From NCBI GenBank assembly GCA_017544545.1, contig JAFYDY010000011.1, positions 1-37,963 of the forward strand: a stretch of DNA of 37,963 bases. Direction: 5' to 3'. Below the pieces are notes generated by a model. It saw only the letters and a program-made list of their open reading frames with translations, was not told the origin of the DNA and did not search any database. Positions 21,733-31,494 of this stretch are shown piece by piece (positions within the stretch are counted from its first letter, which is position 1; every line of letters begins with the position of its first letter). This DNA is from a bacterium (GTDB lineage Bacteria; Cyanobacteriota; Vampirovibrionia; Gastranaerophilales; Gastranaerophilaceae). Both the position numbers and the translations under genes were made by a program.

Positions 21733-21778
21733 TCGTGAAAAATATCCCGATTATTAATTGAATCGTGATATTTCGTAG
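21733..21778. promoter_or_regulatory. Repeated ATCGTGA boxes upstream of adhE (possible redox operator)
   Basis: ATCGTGA occurs at 21732 and again at 21762, 30 bases apart (about three helical turns). The first belongs to an imperfect dyad, TCGTGA-N6-TCCCGA, that recalls Rex operators (TTGTGA-N6-TCACAA). The boxes lie 45-90 bases upstream of the adhE promoter. Assignment to Rex is inference. Confidence 0.35.
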
Positions 21779-21819: not shown

Positions 21820-21848
21820 TTGACATCGAATTTTTTGTGTAATAATAT
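21820..21848 (+). promoter_or_regulatory. Strong sigma-70-type promoter of adhE
   Basis: A perfect TTGACA (21820-21825) and TAATAT (21843-21848) are separated by 17 bases, 39 bases before the adhE start codon. Confidence 0.8.
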
Positions 21849-21887
21849 TTAATTAAGGAATTTAATCACAATTAAGGAGATAAGAAT

Positions 21888-24527
21888 ATGCCTAAACTAA
21901 AAGAAAGAACAACGGAAAAAACAAGCAGCAATGGGTTAGTTAACAACATTGATGCTTTGAACAGTTTACTTGAAAGAGTAAAAAAATCACAATTAGAGTA
22001 TGCGAAATTCTCGCAAGAAGACGTAGACAGAATTTTTAAAGCTGCAGCAACTGCCGCAGACAAAATGAGAATTCCTCTTGCCAGAATGGCAGTGGAAGAT
22101 ACCGGAATGGGTGTTTTAGAAGACAAAATTATTAAAAACCATTTTGCTTCTGAATATATTTATAATAAACACAAAAATGCAAAAACCTGCGGTATTATAA
22201 ATGTCGATAAAGAAAACGGAACAAAGACCGTTGCAGAGCCTCTTGGTATTATTGCCGGTATTATTCCTACAACAAACCCGACATCAACAGCTATTTTCAA
22301 GTCATTAATTTGTTTAAAAACGAGAAACGCTATTGTATTTTCACCACACCCTCGTGCAACAAAATCTACAATAGAAGCAGCTCGTGTTGTTCTTGAAGCA
22401 GCAGTTGAAGCAGGTGCACCAAAAGATATCATTGGCTGGATTGATGAACCTTCAATGGAATTATCTGATGCATTATTACATCACCCTGACGTAGCTTGCA
22501 TCTTGGCTACAGGTGGCCCGGGAATGGTTAAAGCTGCATATTCTTCAGGAAAACCAGCATTAGGCGTCGGCCCCGGTAATACTGCCGCTGTTATTGATGA
22601 AACTGCCGATATTAAAATGGCCGTATCTTCCGTATTGATGTCAAAAACTTTTGACAACGGTATGATTTGTGCTTCTGAACAATCTGTAATCGTTGTTCAG
22701 GATATATATGAAGAAGTTAAAAAAGAATTTATTTATCGCGGAGCTTATCTTGTAAGCAAGGACGATGAAAAGAAAATGATTGATCTTCCGTTCATTGATC
22801 CGGCAAGAGGAACTGCTCATCCTGCTATTGTCGGTCAGCCGGCTCACAAAATTGCAGAACTTGCAGGCTTCAAGATTCCGGACGATTCAAAAATCCTTCT
22901 TTGCGAAAGAGCAAAAATGGATTGGGAAGATCCGTTCTCAAGAGAAAAATTATCACCAATTTTGACTATGTATAAGGCTAAATCTTTTGAAGAAGCTGCA
23001 GAAATGGCACACGAATTAGTATTAAAAGGCGGTGCAGGTCACACATCAGTTCTGTATACAGACGAAAGAAAATCAGACAGAATTAATATGTATGCCGAAA
23101 AAATGCCTTCTTGCCGTATCTTGATTAACCAACCTTCTTCACAAGGTGGTATCGGTGATTTATACAACTTCAGACTGGAGCCGTCATTGTCTTTAGGCTG
23201 CGGCTCATGGGGCGGAAATGCCGTATCAGGCAACATTGGTGTAGAACATTTATTAAATTACAAAACTGTAGCTGAAAGGAGAGAAAATATGTTATGGTTC
23301 AAGGTTCCTCCGAAGGTATATTTCAAACGTGGTGCAACCGATTTGGCACTCAGAGAATTGCAAGGTAAAAAGCGTGCATTTATAGTTACGGACAGATTCT
23401 TGTTCAACTCAGGTGCAGTTGATACTATAACAAAAACTCTTGACGAGATAGGAATTGATCACCAGGTATTCTTTGATGTTAAACCGGATCCGACAATCGC
23501 TACAATTAAGCAGGCTATGGAAATTGTTAAACCATACGAACCTGATGTTATCATTGCGTTGGGCGGCGGATCTCCGATGGATGCCGGCAAAATTATATGG
23601 TTGTTGTATGAACAGCCGGATACAAATTTTGCTGATATTTCAATGAGATTTATGGATATCAGAAAAAGAATTTGTCAAATCCCTGATTTAGGTAAAAAGG
23701 CTACAATGGTATGTATTCCTACAACCTCCGGTACAGGTTCGGAAGTTACTCCGTTCTCAATTATTACGGATGAAAAAACTCACTATAAATATGCAATAGC
23801 AGATTACGCACTGACTCCGAATGTAGCAATCGTTGATCCGAATTATGTTGATGGTATGCCTAAAGGTCTGACTGCAGCATCAGGTATTGACGCTCTTGTT
23901 CACTCATTGGAAGCGTATGTTTCTTGTATGGCAACGAACTTTACTAATTCAAACGCTCTTGAAGCAACAAAATTAGTATTTAAGTATTTGGCTCGTTCAT
24001 ACAATGAAGGTGCTAATGATCCTGTTGCAAGAGAAAAAATGCATTATGCCGCAACTATTGCCGGTATGTCATTTGCAAATGCCTTCTTGGGATTGTGTCA
24101 CTCAATGGCTCACAAACTCGGGGCAATGTACTCTATTCCGCACGGTGTTGCAAACGCATTATTAATAAGACAAGTTATTAAATATAATGCCGTTGATAAA
24201 CCGACAAAACAGGCAATCTTCCCTCAATATAAATTCCCTTGCGCAAAGGCTAAATATGGCCAAATCGCAGACGAATTGAATTTGGGCGGAAAGAATGACG
24301 ATGAAAAAGTGGCATTGTTGATTAAGGCAGTTGATGAACTTATGACAGAAATTAACCTGCCAAAATCAATAAGAGACTTCGGCGTTAAGGAAGATGAATT
24401 TATGGCTAACCTTGATGTATTGGTTGAAAGAGCATTTGACGACCAATGTACAGGTGCAAACCCAAGATATCCTCTTATGAGTGAAATCAAACAAATCTTC
24501 TTAGATGCATATGAAGGTATTGTTTAG
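21888..24527 (+). CDS. adhE: Bifunctional acetaldehyde-CoA/alcohol dehydrogenase
   Basis: AdhE reduces acetyl-CoA to acetaldehyde and then ethanol, oxidising two NADH. It is the main fermentative ethanol route and assembles into spirosome filaments. The 879 residues hold an N-terminal aldehyde dehydrogenase domain with catalytic C261 in GMICASEQ, a linker near 450, and a C-terminal iron-dependent alcohol dehydrogenase with [10 protein letters not shown] (from 559), the metal-binding HSLEAY (H672) and [15 protein letters not shown] lies upstream of the ATG and a strong promoter precedes it. rex follows, so the gene is probably under NADH control. A hairpin between adhE and rex may set their ratio. 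Confidence 0.98.
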
Positions 24528-24556: not shown

Positions 24557-24588
24557 GGGCTCTGCTCGGCCATGTTCACGCAGAGCCC
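24557..24588 (+). terminator. Hairpin between adhE and rex
   Basis: GGGCTCTGC and GCAGAGCCC form a perfect 9-bp, GC-rich stem around a 14-base loop. The following sequence is only moderately T-rich (CTGTCCTTTCTGTTTT). It may be a partial terminator or an mRNA-stabilising hairpin. Confidence 0.6.
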
Positions 24589-24647: not shown

Positions 24648-25286
24648 ATGAAAAGAATGAATATTCCTGACAAGGTCGTAAATCGTTTAACCTTATATCA
24701 TTTTATTCTTGACGACTTAAGAGAAGATGAAAAGTATATTTCAAGTTCAAAGATTGCGCAATTGCTGAATATTGATAATTCGCAAATAAGAAAGGACTTG
24801 AAATATCTTGATAAACCCGGTAAAGCTCGTTTAGGTTATGATGCCAAAATTCTGAAAAAAGCAATAGAAGAAAAGCTTGGATTTAAGCAGACAAAAGATG
24901 CCTTTATCATAGGCGCAGGGAATTTAGGTTCTGCCCTTGCCAAATATTCAAGTTTTCAGGATTACGGATTAAATGTTCTTGCAATGTTTGATAATAATCC
25001 GAATGTAATCGGAACGACCATTAACGGCAAAGAAGTATTTGATATAACAAGAGTCGGAAATCTATCCCAAAGATTAGGGGTTGATATTGCAATATTGACA
25101 GTTCCGAGAGAATCTGCAAAAAGTGTTGCCAATTATCTTGCAGGTTCGGGAATAAAATATATTTGGAATTTCACTACTTGTATTTTAGATGTTCCCAAGG
25201 ATGTCAAAGTCTGGAATGAAAACCTGGTCGGGAGTTTCCTGCAATTTACAAATAATAACGAGGTAAAAGAAAATAAAAATGGCTAA
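24648..25286 (+). CDS. rex: Redox-sensing transcriptional repressor Rex
   Basis: Rex represses fermentation genes and releases DNA when NADH is high. The 212 residues comprise an N-terminal winged helix (YHFILDDLREDEKYISS, IDNSQIRKDLKYL) and a Rossmann domain with IIGAGNLGSALAKY and MFDNNPNVIGTTINGKEV, followed by the C-terminal domain-swap helix region. AAAGGAG lies only two bases before the ATG at 24648 but eleven before an in-frame ATG at 24657, so the start could be three codons later. The 3' end overlaps the next gene by eight bases, tying rex to the ferredoxin-hydrogenase-phosphatase genes in one operon. Confidence 0.95.
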   Translation: MKRMNIPDKVVNRLTLYHFILDDLREDEKYISSSKIAQLLNIDNSQIRKDLKYLDKPGKARLGYDAKILKKAIEEKLGFKQTKDAFIIGAGNLGSALAKYSSFQDYGLNVLAMFDNNPNVIGTTINGKEVFDITRVGNLSQRLGVDIAILTVPRESAKSVANYLAGSGIKYIWNFTTCILDVPKDVKVWNENLVGSFLQFTNNNEVKENKNG

Positions 25287-25512
25287 TGAAATTAAGGTTT
25301 GTATGGGAAGTGCCTGCTTTGCAAAAGGCAATCAGGAAAACTTGGAATATATAAAACAGTATTTGGAAGATAATAATCTTGAAACGGTAGTTTCAATAAC
25401 TGGTTCTTTGTGTGAAAATAAATGCGATATAGGACCGAGGATTATTGTCAATGCCAAAGAATATACAAATGTTACTCCGCAAGATTTGGAAGAAATATTA
25501 AAGGGGCTGTAA
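25279..25512 (+). CDS. Thioredoxin-like [2Fe-2S] ferredoxin
   Basis: This 77-residue protein begins MANEIKVCMGSACFAKG and later has CENKCDIGPRIIVNAK. The Cys-x4-Cys and Cys-x3-Cys pairs and the length match the thioredoxin-fold [2Fe-2S] domain found in NuoE, HydC-type hydrogenase subunits and stand-alone ferredoxins. It overlaps rex by eight bases and precedes the hydrogenase-like gene by one base. It probably passes electrons to or from that protein (inference). Confidence 0.85.
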   Translation: MANEIKVCMGSACFAKGNQENLEYIKQYLEDNNLETVVSITGSLCENKCDIGPRIIVNAKEYTNVTPQDLEEILKGL

Positions 25513-25513
25513 T

Positions 25514-27241
25514 ATGGAAAAACAATATCCTGTCTATACTTTAAAAAATGAATGTAATGATTGCTACAAGTGTATTAGAGGATGTCACATAAAAGCAATC
25601 AGAATACAACAGGGCTCGGCGTCGGTTATAAATGAAAAATGTATAGCCTGCGGTCATTGTGTAAAAATTTGTCCTGCCGGTGCAAAAAAAGTCAGAAGTG
25701 ATATTGATAAAGTTAAAACCCTGTTGCTTACAGGTAAAAAAGTATATGTGTCCCTTGCACCGAGTTGGGCAGGTGTATATAACATCCCAAAAGGTAAAAT
25801 GATAGCAGTTCTTAAAAAACTTGGTTTTGCAGGAGTTTCAGAAACAGCATTGGGAGCGCAGGAGGTTTCTATCGAAACGGCTAAAATGCTGAATAAAGCG
25901 GGAAAGGGTTTATATATTTCCTCGGCGTGTCCGGTTATTGATGATTATATCAGACTTTACAAACCTGATTTTGCAAAATGTATTACACCTGTGGCGTCTC
26001 CGGCATTGACTCATTGTGCTTTATTAAAAGATATGCTCGGTGAAGATATAAGAATTGTTTTCATAGGCCCATGTATTGCAAAGAAGAATGAAGCTGATGA
26101 AAATCCTGATTTAATGTCGGCTGCTCTGACTTTTGATGAGTTAAACTATTGGATAAAAGAAGAATTTATTGATATAGAAACTATTGAAAGTGACGAAAGT
26201 TGTCATTTTGTTCCGGAAGGTGCATATGAAGGTGCGCTATACCCGCTCGAAGGCGGAATGAATGAAACAATAAAGCAAGTCGGTATTGAAAAGAACGACG
26301 TAACATTTATTGCGGTGAGTTCTTTGGAAGATTTTGACAAATCCTTGCAAAACATAAATCCGGATAAGGTAGAAAATAAAATTTTTGTTGAAGCGTTAGC
26401 GTGCTCCGGTGGTTGTATAAACGGCCCTTGTTTATCCAGCGAAAAATCAAGGATATTAATAACATCCGATATTTATGCAAATACTCAATACAGAGATGAG
26501 GTTCCGACAGAGCCAAGAAAAGTTGTTGAAAAAGAATATAAACCTGCACCTTTTGAAAAGGTTGAATATTCGATAGATCAGGTTACAAAAGCCCTGAAGA
26601 AAATAAGCAAACATTCGGAAGAAGATGAATTAAACTGCTCAGGCTGTGGTTATGCAAGTTGCCGAGAGTTTGTGAATGCCCTTATAGCAGGTGATGCTGA
26701 ACCTTCGCAGTGCGTATCCTATATGAGAAAAATTGCCGTAAGAAAAGCTGCCGCAATGCTGAGGTGTATGCCGTCCGCTGTTGTAATCGTTGATTCCGAA
26801 TTGCAAATAGTAGAGGCAAATGATTCTTTTGAACATATGTTCTTAAGTGATGAAATGTATGAAGTATTTGCTTCCCGTCAGGATGGTATGACAGGGGCTT
26901 GCATAGACAGAATTGTTCCGTTCCCTGAATTGTTTAAATCAGCTCTTGATACAGGGAAAGAAATTCATCAGGAACATTATGCAATAGATGATAAAGTGTA
27001 CGATATAAGTATATTTACTATCGAAGATAACGAGCTTGTCGGTGCTGTTATATCCGATGTTACAAAATCTGAAATTGACAGAAGTAAAATTGCACAAAAA
27101 GCGAGAGAAGTTATTACTAAAAATATTGCAACAGTTCAGGAAATTGCAAGTCTGCTTGGTGAACATATGGTTGAAACAGAGCTGCTTTTAAGCTCTATTG
27201 CAGAAGGCTATGATCCTAATTCTAATGAGGATAAAAAATAA
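25514..27241 (+). CDS. Sensory-type [FeFe]-hydrogenase with PAS domain (HydS-like, group C)
   Basis: In order this 575-residue protein has two [4Fe-4S] ferredoxin motifs (C14, C17, C20, C24 and C43, C46, C49, C53), an H-cluster domain, a four-Cys Fe-S domain (C375, C378, C383, C400) and a PAS domain (about 415-530). In the H-cluster domain, L1 reads SSACPV (C139), L2 reads GPCIAKKNEAD (C187, E193) and L3 reads ALACSGGCINGPC (C297, C301). The four cluster-ligand cysteines are kept, but the proton-relay Cys of the usual TSCCP is Ala138. With the PAS domain and the adjacent phosphatase, this is the pattern of putative H2-sensing group C enzymes. The stop overlaps the next start (TAATG). No catalytic hydrogenase or HydEFG gene is in the window. 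Confidence 0.85.
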   Translation: MEKQYPVYTLKNECNDCYKCIRGCHIKAIRIQQGSASVINEKCIACGHCVKICPAGAKKVRSDIDKVKTLLLTGKKVYVSLAPSWAGVYNIPKGKMIAVLKKLGFAGVSETALGAQEVSIETAKMLNKAGKGLYISSACPVIDDYIRLYKPDFAKCITPVASPALTHCALLKDMLGEDIRIVFIGPCIAKKNEADENPDLMSAALTFDELNYWIKEEFIDIETIESDESCHFVPEGAYEGALYPLEGGMNETIKQVGIEKNDVTFIAVSSLEDFDKSLQNINPDKVENKIFVEALACSGGCINGPCLSSEKSRILITSDIYANTQYRDEVPTEPRKVVEKEYKPAPFEKVEYSIDQVTKALKKISKHSEEDELNCSGCGYASCREFVNALIAGDAEPSQCVSYMRKIAVRKAAAMLRCMPSAVVIVDSELQIVEANDSFEHMFLSDEMYEVFASRQDGMTGACIDRIVPFPELFKSALDTGKEIHQEHYAIDDKVYDISIFTIEDNELVGAVISDVTKSEIDRSKIAQKAREVITKNIATVQEIASLLGEHMVETELLLSSIAEGYDPNSNEDKK

Positions 27242-28398
27242 TGTTTATAGATATTGCTTGTTCTCAAAAAAAGAAATATAACCAAAATGCATATGGTGAT
27301 TTTTTTGCTTCAAACAGGTTTCCTAATATGAACAGGGTTGTGGCTGTTTTGTCTGACGGTCTGGGAAGCGGGATTAAGGCAAATATCCTTGCTTGTATGA
27401 CTTCCACAATGTTATTAAAGTTTATGGAAAGTCACTCTGACATTGAAAAATCCTGTGAAATCATTATGAACTCACTTCCTGTTTGTAAAGTCAGAGGAAT
27501 CAGCTATTCTACATTTTCTGCAATAGACTGTTTTGAAGACGGCAAGGCAAAAATTGTTGAAGAAGGCAATCCGGACTTTATCTGGATTAGAAATGGCGAA
27601 GTTTTAAAGCCGGAATTTCAAACAATTCAGTCCAAAGACTTTAAAAACAGAAAAATGAAAGTTTATAATATAAAGCTTGAAAAATACGACAGAGTTATTT
27701 TCTGCTCAGACGGCGCGACTCAGGTTGCTATGGGAACAAAAGAATATCCTCTCGGATTGGAAAGAAGCGGTCTTATAAAAATAATTCTCAAAAAATTAGA
27801 GCAGGAACCTGAAATATCATCAAAAGACCTGAGCGAATTTTTGGTAAAACAAGTAGAACTTATTGCCCCAAACAGAGAGCTTAAGGATGATACTTCGATT
27901 CTTTCTATTTATTGCAGGGATCCGAGGGAATCGTTAATATTTACCGGCCCGCCATTCCATAGTGAAAAAGACAGCTTCTATGCCAAAACCTTTATGGATT
28001 TCAAAGGTAAAAAAGCTATCTCCGGAGGAACAACTGCAAATATTATTTCAAGAGAATTGAACATCCCTGTAGTAGCTGATATGTCCACAAACAGAGGTAA
28101 ATTACCCGGACTGTTAAAAATGGACGGAGTTGATTTGGTAACAGAAGGTATATTGACATTGACCAAGACTTTGGAATATCTTCAAAGTGGTCAGAGTGAT
28201 GATGATGCAGCAAGAGTTTTAATGAATTTTATGTTAAACTCTGATGTTATAAGCTTTTTAGTCGGGGCGCAAATGAACAAGGCTCATTATGATCCTAACC
28301 TTCCGATTGAAATAGAGATAAGAAAAAATATCATAAAACAAATAGCAAAAGTTTTAGAAGAAAAATATTTGAAAAAAGTTGAGGTACAATTTATATAA
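27241..28398 (+). CDS. SpoIIE-family PP2C-type protein phosphatase
   Basis: This 385-residue protein has the SpoIIE/PP2C metal-site pattern: VVAVLSDGLGSGIKAN near residue 32, ISYSTFSAIDC, RVIFCSDGATQ, and a final acidic LKDDTSILSIYC. The last ~130 residues form a distinct domain, beginning around FTGPPFHSEKD, that I do not recognise. Such phosphatases dephosphorylate Ser/Thr on partner-switch proteins or other targets. Here the start codon overlaps the stop of the hydrogenase-like sensor, so it is the likely output of that sensor, as in Firmicutes clusters that pair sensory hydrogenases with SpoIIE phosphatases. The substrate is unknown. Confidence 0.85.
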   Translation: MFIDIACSQKKKYNQNAYGDFFASNRFPNMNRVVAVLSDGLGSGIKANILACMTSTMLLKFMESHSDIEKSCEIIMNSLPVCKVRGISYSTFSAIDCFEDGKAKIVEEGNPDFIWIRNGEVLKPEFQTIQSKDFKNRKMKVYNIKLEKYDRVIFCSDGATQVAMGTKEYPLGLERSGLIKIILKKLEQEPEISSKDLSEFLVKQVELIAPNRELKDDTSILSIYCRDPRESLIFTGPPFHSEKDSFYAKTFMDFKGKKAISGGTTANIISRELNIPVVADMSTNRGKLPGLLKMDGVDLVTEGILTLTKTLEYLQSGQSDDDAARVLMNFMLNSDVISFLVGAQMNKAHYDPNLPIEIEIRKNIIKQIAKVLEEKYLKKVEVQFI

Positions 28399-28409
28399 AG
28401 GAGTTAAAA

Positions 28410-28667
28410 ATGGAAAAGATTACAGTAAAAGTATGCACCGGAACAACCTGTTTTGTAATGGGCGGGGCTAATTTGCAGGAATTAAACGATATTATTGCCA
28501 AAAAATATGGTGATAAGGTTGAACTTACTGCTTCAAATTGCTTGGGTTTATGCTCAATAAATTGGGAATATTCAAAAGCCCCTTATGTAAAAGTCAATGA
28601 AGAAGTTGTATCAGAAGCAACAGCAGAAAAAGTAATAGCAGAAATTGACAGACAGCTTGCAAAATAA
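28410..28667 (+). CDS. Thioredoxin-like [2Fe-2S] ferredoxin, second copy
   Basis: This 85-residue protein opens KVCTGTTCFVMGG and carries CLGLCSINW, the same Cys-x4-Cys and Cys-x3-Cys pattern as the ferredoxin at 25279. The spacing between the pairs and the tail differ, so it is a paralogue and not a recent duplicate. An AAAGGAG site precedes the ATG, 12 bases after the phosphatase stop. It is the last gene of the rex operon. Confidence 0.85.
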   Translation: MEKITVKVCTGTTCFVMGGANLQELNDIIAKKYGDKVELTASNCLGLCSINWEYSKAPYVKVNEEVVSEATAEKVIAEIDRQLAK

Positions 28668-28693: not shown

Positions 28694-28744
28694 TTGTTAA
28701 TTTCTGTAAAAAATAAAAGTTGTACTAACAAAATATATTTTTAG
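28694..28744 (+). promoter_or_regulatory. Conserved upstream element, copy A
   Basis: TTGTTAATTTCTGTAAAAA, a 10-base gap, then ACTAACAAAATATATTTT and TTAG. Copy B (30934-30985) has the same two blocks with an 11-base gap. Together the blocks match at about 40 of 41 positions. The core CAAAATATATTTTTA also occurs in copies C and (with one change) D. The element ends 41 bases before the ATG of the 28786 gene and probably contains its promoter. Confidence 0.7.
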
Positions 28745-28785: not shown

Positions 28786-29976
28786 ATGTTAAAAATATCA
28801 CCTATTCTGCCGACAAATTATAACAATCAAAACAGGGTACTCAAGCAAAAAAGTTCAGAATCTGCTCCAGTTTGTGAGAACAAAAGAGAATATAATCCGG
28901 CTTACTATATGCCTAATAATATATCTTTTGGGAAAAGAATAGTTCCTTTCGACATTGCCCACTCCGAATATTTGAAATTAACCAATGATCAAAAAAGTTT
29001 TTTAAGAAGAAATTTCGAAAATTTTTATAAGCTTATTAATATAGATGAATTGTACTGGTCAAAAGGTAGAACGATTGACTCAAAACTGCCGTTATCAACT
29101 GAAGCTGAAATGAAAGACTTCTTAAACGTTGCTTCGTCATACAATAAATACAGGGCTGACAAAGCTACAGGGACTAAGGCAAATCGTATTATTTGTTTGG
29201 GAAGAAGCCCCAAGTGGTTCTTGAATGCATCTTTATGGATGAAGGGTGGTATTCAGGATTATACATTTACAGCCTTTTCGTCAAACTGGTATCACAGAAA
29301 CGGTTGTGGTGTCGGTGAAAAATTATTCCGTGATGACATGAGAGAACCGACAATAGAACAGGCATTTGCGTATAAAAAATATCTTAAAAGAATAGATTGC
29401 ACTCCTGTTGATTTGGTTGAATCAGCTGAAAAAACAGGTAAACCAGTAATAATTACAGACTATATTCATTCCGGCTGCGGTGTAACCTCTTGGTTGGATC
29501 TTATGTCTAAATATGCAAAGGATGACGGAGTATTGGATGAATTCGCAAAAAGTATTCGTTTGCATACAATGAGTTCAAATGATTACATAGACAATGTTTT
29601 AGAGTATCATAATGCTTTCAGAAACCCACGGGTTTTAATGCCGTCAAAATTGGAAAAATATTCGATTCCTCAAGATTACAACGATATGTCAGCAGATGTT
29701 TTAAAAAGTATGTTGGTGGACAAAAATACAAATGAATGCCGTTCAACGTTCTATTCCCCGCAAGCTTGGACAATATATTCACCCGAAAAATTCAAAATTG
29801 CGCAAATGACTCCGGAAGAACTGCAAAAAGCATATGATTACCATAAGATGTGGGGTGGAGTGTTCCCAAATGCATGGACTGATGCAATGAAAGATTACCG
29901 TAATATGCTGAACTTCAGAATTTTGGATTATCTTTCAGAGCATGGAATGCTTGATATGAGACATATTAATGACTAA
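28786..29976 (+). CDS. Unrecognised 396-residue protein with N-terminal NNISFGK motif
   Basis: The first ~45 residues are polar and probably disordered, then comes MPNNISFGKRIVPF, a motif echoed by NNVSFGAR in the 31036 protein and KISFQG in the 37407 protein. The rest is a soluble mixed-fold domain with no signal peptide or membrane segment. Two segments, RIICLGRSPKWFLNAS and KPVIITDYIHSGCGVTS, look like the strand-loop and PRPP-loop regions of a phosphoribosyltransferase-like fold (hydrophobic strand, Asp, then a small-residue loop). This is only a visual hint. An AAGGAG site precedes the ATG and conserved element A lies upstream. Confidence 0.75.
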   Translation: MLKISPILPTNYNNQNRVLKQKSSESAPVCENKREYNPAYYMPNNISFGKRIVPFDIAHSEYLKLTNDQKSFLRRNFENFYKLINIDELYWSKGRTIDSKLPLSTEAEMKDFLNVASSYNKYRADKATGTKANRIICLGRSPKWFLNASLWMKGGIQDYTFTAFSSNWYHRNGCGVGEKLFRDDMREPTIEQAFAYKKYLKRIDCTPVDLVESAEKTGKPVIITDYIHSGCGVTSWLDLMSKYAKDDGVLDEFAKSIRLHTMSSNDYIDNVLEYHNAFRNPRVLMPSKLEKYSIPQDYNDMSADVLKSMLVDKNTNECRSTFYSPQAWTIYSPEKFKIAQMTPEELQKAYDYHKMWGGVFPNAWTDAMKDYRNMLNFRILDYLSEHGMLDMRHIND

Positions 29977-30933: not shown

Positions 30934-30985
30934 TTGTTAATTTCTGTAAAAATAAATATGATTTACTAACAAAATATATTTTTAG
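30934..30985 (+). promoter_or_regulatory. Conserved upstream element, copy B
   Basis: This has the same two blocks as copy A: TTGTTAATTTCTGTAAAAA (30934-30952) and ACTAACAAAATATATTTT plus TTAG (30965-30985... core at 30969), separated by 11 bases. It lies 50 bases before the ATG of the 31036 gene. TTGTTA at the left end and TAACAA in the right block form an inverted repeat about 25 bases apart. Confidence 0.7.
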
Positions 30986-31035: not shown

Positions 31036-31494
31036 ATGATAGACAGAATAAACAATGTTTCTTTTGGGGCAAGATTATATACAAATTTGGATATTCCGCA
31101 GGCAAAAGCATTTATGAAGGCTGCGCGCGGATTTGAATGGAAGACAAAAGCAAAATATCCGGATTCGACTCTGTATCTGCAATCAGACAGATTCCATAAA
31201 GAGCGCACAATATTAACTATTGGCGGCGAAAAAGAATGGACAAATTACATGGATATAGATGTTCTGCAGCCCGGGGAATTAAAGGACAGCAGCAAACTTG
31301 CCAGCAAGCTTGTAAAAGTTTTCAAAATGCTGACTCTTGAAGAAGATATATTGAGAAACTTAGGTAAAGACAGAGAAGTTGCTGATGCTATAGCAAAAAT
31401 GAATAAAATTGCCGGCAATGACGCTAAATTGCAGGAGTATGCAGGAAACGTCAGACGCGGATACGGCTATGACAACGTACCTGTGGAAGTTTAG
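31036..31494 (+). CDS. Unrecognised 152-residue protein with N-terminal NNVSFGA motif
   Basis: It begins MIDRINNVSFGARLYTN, placing the VSFG motif at residues 8-11. The remainder is a small soluble alpha/beta protein (strands around TLYLQSDRF and ERTILTIGG, then helices). No signal peptide, membrane segment or known family is seen. A purine-rich AAAGGATAGAGAAAGA precedes the ATG, and conserved element B lies upstream. The stop codon overlaps that of the convergent patatin gene by four bases. Confidence 0.75.
   Translation: MIDRINNVSFGARLYTNLDIPQAKAFMKAARGFEWKTKAKYPDSTLYLQSDRFHKERTILTIGGEKEWTNYMDIDVLQPGELKDSSKLASKLVKVFKMLTLEEDILRNLGKDREVADAIAKMNKIAGNDAKLQEYAGNVRRGYGYDNVPVEV

Follow-up and report, generated by a model that had tools for sequence, protein, structure and literature searches.

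Work on rumen methane and biofuel engineering share an old question: how do fermenting microbes decide between ethanol and H2? The locus described here raises it in a particular form: what would a hydrogenase-like protein and a Ser/Thr phosphatase do beside the ethanol gene adhE and the NADH-sensing repressor gene rex? The cluster lies in a stretch of 37,963 nucleotides (hereafter, the window) from a member of the Gastranaerophilales (Melainabacteria), and close counterparts of it come from rumen and gut genomes, many of them assigned to Candidatus Gastranaerophilales or Melainabacteria. We consider it probable that the genes encode a HydS–phosphatase redox-signaling module beside adhE and rex, equivalent to the sensor part of Ruminococcus albus hydS/hydA2 and of Thermoanaerobacterium hfsABC. 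The host genome (G000) is a 1.09-Mb draft in 117 contigs and is only 66% complete, so absences in it carry little weight, and relatives of 95–99% completeness were the main basis for calling a gene absent.

A sequence-only reading of this DNA had placed five closely packed genes after adhE. All five are present and were named by profile searches (Table 1). The genes from rex to fd2 form one tight unit, with an 8-base overlap, a 1-base gap, TAATG and an 11-base gap at successive junctions; the last of these had been given as 12 bases. The same reading had treated the genes as one unit, which holds from rex to fd2, but a hairpin separates adhE from rex in the 120 bases between them, so that position, and possibly read-through, is what links adhE to the unit. 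No ferredoxin-type hydrogenase gene lies downstream in the window, and no remnant of one was found after fd2.

Table 1 Genes and regulatory features of the cluster, in window coordinates.
Feature	Position	Strand	Evidence
Rex-like half-site TCGTGA upstream of adhE	21733..21738	+	Half-site enrichment at linked adhE genes
Second Rex-like half-site TCGTGA	21763..21768	+	Half-site enrichment at linked adhE genes
Probable sigma-70 promoter of adhE (TTGACA-17-TAATAT)	21820..21848	+	TTGACA and AT-rich -10 at the same place in related loci
Third Rex-like half-site TCACAA, directly 3′ of the promoter	21866..21871	+	ATCAC(A/G/T)A or a near variant at the matching position in the linked loci listed
adhE, bifunctional acetaldehyde-CoA/alcohol dehydrogenase	21888..24527	+	NF010378, 1373.9 bits
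GC-rich hairpin in the adhE–rex gap, terminator- or attenuator-like	24557..24588	+	Gap fold z = -3.0
rex, NADH-sensing repressor	24648..25286	+	NF003994, 214.9 bits (cut-off 130); GxGxxG (IIGAGNLG)
fd1, stand-alone thioredoxin-like (NuoE-type) [2Fe-2S] protein	25279..25512	+	PF01257; C8, C13, C45 and C49 invariant
hydS, PAS-bearing sensory [FeFe]-hydrogenase	25514..27241	+	PF02906, 155.7 bits; two Fer4; PF04060; weak PAS
spoIIE, SpoIIE/PP2C-type Ser/Thr phosphatase with a C-terminal domain without family name	27241..28398	+	PF07228, 43.6 bits
fd2, second thioredoxin-like (NuoE-type) [2Fe-2S] protein	28410..28667	+	PF01257; four cysteines conserved

HydS retains all four H-cluster cysteines (C139, C187, C297 and C301) and carries A138, G185 and L295 at the positions of CpI C299, M353 and M497. 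A Cx2Cx4Cx16C motif at residues 375–400 is followed by a PAS domain, which is weak in profile searches, PAS_8 exceeding the Pfam threshold in a scan restricted to this region. In the structural model, residues 4–345 match solved [FeFe]-hydrogenases (8zqd_A, Z 37.1, rmsd 2.8, 337 residues aligned), and a PAS fold spans residues ~401–515, followed by C-terminal helices of low model confidence. Together these features are the published signature of sensory group C hydrogenases; at the same three positions, Thermotoga maritima TmHydS has Ala, Gly and Ser (PMC10055695; PMC8163306). The window protein thus shares Ala and Gly with TmHydS, as well as the C-terminal Cx2Cx4Cx16C motif and the PAS domain, but has Leu where TmHydS has Ser (M497 position); an operon with another hydrogenase gene is also reported for TmHydS. 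Phosphatase-linked putative H2 sensors make up HydDB group C3 (PMC5037454), and the window module is assigned to this type from its sequence, namely these residues, the cysteine motif with PAS, and the adjoining phosphatase gene. A HydG maturase is encoded in G000, which probably allows the H-cluster to be assembled.

The phosphatase shares its catalytic fold and metal-binding aspartates with RsbU, SpoIIE and RsbP. Residues 1–230 of its model match a PP2C/SpoIIE domain (3pu9_A, Z 25.1, rmsd 2.8, 214 aligned), and D39, D157, D216 and D217 are invariant and kept in distant relatives. In contrast to those phosphatases, its PAS input lies on a separate hydrogenase chain, it bears an extra C-terminal domain, and most hydS-bearing genomes tested lack a STAS antagonist. 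The extra domain (residues ~228–385; window 27922–28395) has GGTT and DLVTEG motifs, is conserved as far as R. albus, matches no Pfam family and has no convincing counterpart among PDB sequences; results of the phosphatase fold search were filled by the PP2C domain.

Gene order was compared across 86 hydS loci, one of which is a duplicate. In every one, hydS lies immediately 5′ of the phosphatase gene on the same strand, an order far beyond chance. The fd1–hydS–spoIIE–fd2 core is intact in 74 of the 86, several of the exceptions being contig ends or distant relatives, and a ferredoxin-type hydrogenase gene follows the core in 68. Conserved gene order, the point on which the sequence-only reading had been prepared to fall, is therefore confirmed for hydS–spoIIE and the four-gene core. 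The link to rex and adhE is not general in the lineage: either gene occurs within 7 kb at 27 of the 86 loci, and almost all genus mates have the sensor core at a distance from both, mostly adjoining the hydrogenase gene. The window arrangement is common to its rumen-locus clade, two further loci from Gastranaerophilales (L068 and L069), a genome of another family (G034), and L095. Other arrangements place adhE after the hydrogenase gene (L127–L129) or have rex (L130) or adhE (G035) divergent, and in G027 and G036 rex follows a bifurcating-hydrogenase-like set.

In the HydS tree, the window protein groups with those of G034, L068, L069 and L126, apart from the genus mates, which form a separate 57-row clade (support 99). 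The fork uniting 18 linked rows has a support of 82 and includes long branches, which leaves the origin of the linked HydS unsure. A solitary ferredoxin-type [FeFe]-hydrogenase gene (L053) is present on another contig of the host draft (C49:2142–3635); its neighbors are the same as in genus mates, except that fd1–hydS–spoIIE–fd2 does not accompany it. Most simply, this genome would have lost the sensor of the genus type and would carry in its place a different, adhE/rex-linked one, acquired by transfer or derived from an old duplication. The draft also contains a second full-length adhE (C20:6017–8629), 80% identical to the window copy. In many of the window’s closest relatives, a gene for an iron-type alcohol dehydrogenase of ~400 residues comes after the cluster, following the hydrogenase gene in L055, L056, L058, L060 and L061 and following fd2 in L059 and L064.

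The published Rex operator is TTGTGAANNNNTTCACAA (PMC6391272). Promoters of 12 linked adhE genes contain 38 Rex half-sites, compared with 3.8 in shuffles. Only some of them have full palindromes; the window adhE has half-sites only, its best full 18-mer scoring 10 of 14 (p = 0.20). A Rex palindrome occurs in 11 of 12 promoters of the unlinked, native adhE genes of the genus (e.g., TTGTGATAAAAATCACAA), against 0.0 in shuffles; because the motif pattern was defined on the linked promoters, only this native set provides an independent test. Judged by these motifs, the linked adhE promoter appears to carry a diverged, half-site version of the Rex operator. Palindromes also lie 5′ of fd1 in L128, L130 and G036, where rex or adhE is nearby, and L096 has two at this position though neither gene is in view. 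None was found upstream of fd1 in any genus mate or upstream of the solitary hydrogenase gene, and a general rule linking Rex to HydS was accordingly rejected. In 13 loci the adhE–rex gap measures 57–120 bases and, despite differing sequences, is predicted to form a hairpin every time (z -1.4 to -7.4); in L068, where the gap is 57 bases, the hairpin takes up most of it, so that a promoter would hardly fit. The hairpin may thus cause termination with read-through, which would yield much AdhE and little regulator.

The same parts are found in R. albus 7, whose plasmid pRUMAL01 carries the row rex-adhE-phosphotransferase-Fd-Fd-hydS-spoIIE-hydA2. As in the window, rex, adhE, the genes for two thioredoxin-like [2Fe-2S] proteins and a PAS-bearing HydS, and that for a SpoIIE phosphatase with the same C-terminal domain are adjacent on one strand; however, their order differs, and neither the APH-type phosphotransferase nor the adjoining hydrogenase is present in the window cluster. 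Identities between the two are 58% for AdhE, 34% for Rex, 32% for HydS and 31% for the phosphatase. No Rex palindrome was found upstream of the R. albus cluster. Expression of an eight-gene R. albus cluster including adhE, a ferredoxin hydrogenase and a sensory hydrogenase was 111-fold lower in an H2-consuming co-culture (PMC6776011); this is presumably the pRUMAL01 cluster, given its gene content and the assignment of hydA2 and hydS to pRumal01 in a review (PMC10838669). The physical link of rex to two [2Fe-2S] proteins, which had been put forward as little described, is therefore not new, as R. albus has the same parts and the transcriptional H2 response of the matching cluster is published. 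The accompanying proposal, that an [FeFe]-hydrogenase of sensory type forms a pair with a Ser/Thr phosphatase and is tied to Rex and AdhE, is supported. The cluster is a real, conserved system of a known kind for which we found no earlier description in this lineage; new here are the strong Rex palindromes of unlinked adhE genes, their diverged half-site version at linked ones, the adhE–rex hairpin, and the lack of a STAS antagonist and a Hanks kinase in most of the complete hydS-bearing genomes tested.

Genetic data come from Thermoanaerobacterium, where hfsB is tied to adhE; in R. albus, a cluster of this type responds strongly to H2. Deletion of hfsA or hfsB in T. saccharolyticum increases ethanol ~1.8-fold and raises adhE expression, an effect that needs hfsC and hfsD (PMC5707799). 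Like the genes studied here, hfsABCD combines a HydS-type protein (HfsB), a serine-phosphatase-like protein (HfsC), a ferredoxin hydrogenase (HfsD) and a genetic link to adhE (PMC5707799, PMC11837493), whereas a physical link to adhE or rex is not described in those two papers, and the HfsD-like gene of the host genome is on another contig. The order of HydS, phosphatase and small [2Fe-2S] protein seen in the hfs and hydS-hydA2 operons recurs in the window, but the hydrogenase gene of those operons does not.

From the observed parts, residues, gene order and promoter motifs, we infer the following signaling steps. Rex would sense NADH and, when NADH is low, repress the adhE promoter; rex-fd1-hydS-spoIIE would be expressed, together with fd2, partly through read-through beyond the hairpin. 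HydS may bind H2 at a slow H-cluster and relay its state via the Fe-S clusters and the PAS domain, with the two [2Fe-2S] proteins as its electron partners. The direction of control is proposed from the hfs deletion genetics and the R. albus H2 response: HydS would restrain the phosphatase and H2 would lift the restraint, since deleting hfsA or hfsB raises ethanol only with hfsC and hfsD present and since high H2 accompanies expression of the R. albus cluster. The active phosphatase would then dephosphorylate some protein, increasing ethanol capacity, hydrogenase capacity or both. In favor of such a module are the residues and domains matching group C, the invariant hydS–spoIIE order, the R. 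albus counterpart, the effect of hfsB deletion on adhE and ethanol, the Rex palindromes at native adhE promoters, the HydG maturase in the genome, and the recurrent adjacency to adhE or rex in several forms (co-directional upstream, adhE downstream, rex divergent, adhE divergent). Against it stand the half-sites alone at the window adhE promoter, the L096 palindromes without rex or adhE, the ferredoxin hydrogenase outside the window cluster, the lack of a canonical phosphatase target or kinase among our search results, the R. albus cluster without an upstream Rex palindrome, and the low confidence of the HydS C-terminal helices.

On what might the phosphatase act? Its SpoIIE/RsbU fold is what a partner-switching cascade would use, in which a STAS antagonist is dephosphorylated and a sigma factor freed, and the sequence-only reading had proposed a search for STAS or anti-sigma partners elsewhere. 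These are absent from most complete hydS-bearing relatives tested. Neither STAS nor STAS_2 was found in G015 (99% complete), nor STAS_2 in G001, G009, G010, G023 or G034; the sole STAS of G009 and of G023 lies within a frame of ~545 residues, the stand-alone exceptions being in G004 (113-residue frame) and G034 (117-residue frame, 25.6 bits). No Hanks kinase was found in any of the 11 genomes searched, APH-type kinases are patchy, and the STAS, STAS_2, HATPase_c_2, Hanks kinase and APH kinase searches together gave no consistent candidate partner. As most of the complete hydS-bearing genomes tested lack both a STAS antagonist and a Hanks kinase, the target is probably not of the RsbU/SpoIIE type, and we regard a partner-switching cascade as extremely improbable. 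The search for a target is narrowed by a natural lineage in which the sensor parts have been joined to adhE and rex again and again, and in which the partners usual for such phosphatases are missing. In one tentative and on balance unlikely scheme, the direct substrate of the H2-controlled phosphatase would be a metabolic enzyme, for instance the ferredoxin hydrogenase or AdhE; if true, this would be a direct H2-to-enzyme dephosphorylation switch nested beneath the NADH control exerted by Rex.

The proposed module has competing explanations. HydS could be a working hydrogenase, serving as an electron outlet or for uptake, whose redox partners are the two [2Fe-2S] proteins; the phosphatase would then be incidental. 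All four H-cluster cysteines and the accessory cluster ligands are kept, and TmHydS has measurable activity (PMC10055695); yet Ala, Gly and Leu at the C299, M353 and M497 positions, the PAS domain and the fixed phosphatase neighbor make this very unlikely. Less easily set aside, though still doubtful, is that two independent regulators travel together, Rex acting on adhE and HydS–phosphatase on the distant ferredoxin hydrogenase, sharing a condition of use but no crosstalk. The distance of the sensor core from adhE and rex in nearly all genus mates, mostly beside a hydrogenase, would fit such independence, as would the lack of Rex palindromes before fd1 in these genomes. It is countered by the adhE/rex linkage, which recurs in various arrangements and also in a distant phylum, and by the altered adhE expression upon hfsB deletion (PMC5707799). 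The HydS–phosphatase signaling module remains our preferred reading.

Downstream of fd2, a repeat of ~52 bases (TTGTTAATTTCTGTAAA...ACTAACAAAATATATTTTTAG) occurs in two copies, at window positions 28694–28744 and 30934–30985; its first 17 bases do not occur again in the G000 sequence. The copies bracket ~2.2 kb containing two genes, in the position occupied by the ferredoxin hydrogenase in relatives. The proteins encoded at 28786–29976 and 31036–31494 are without a Pfam match, and both carry an N-terminal ISFG/VSFG motif.
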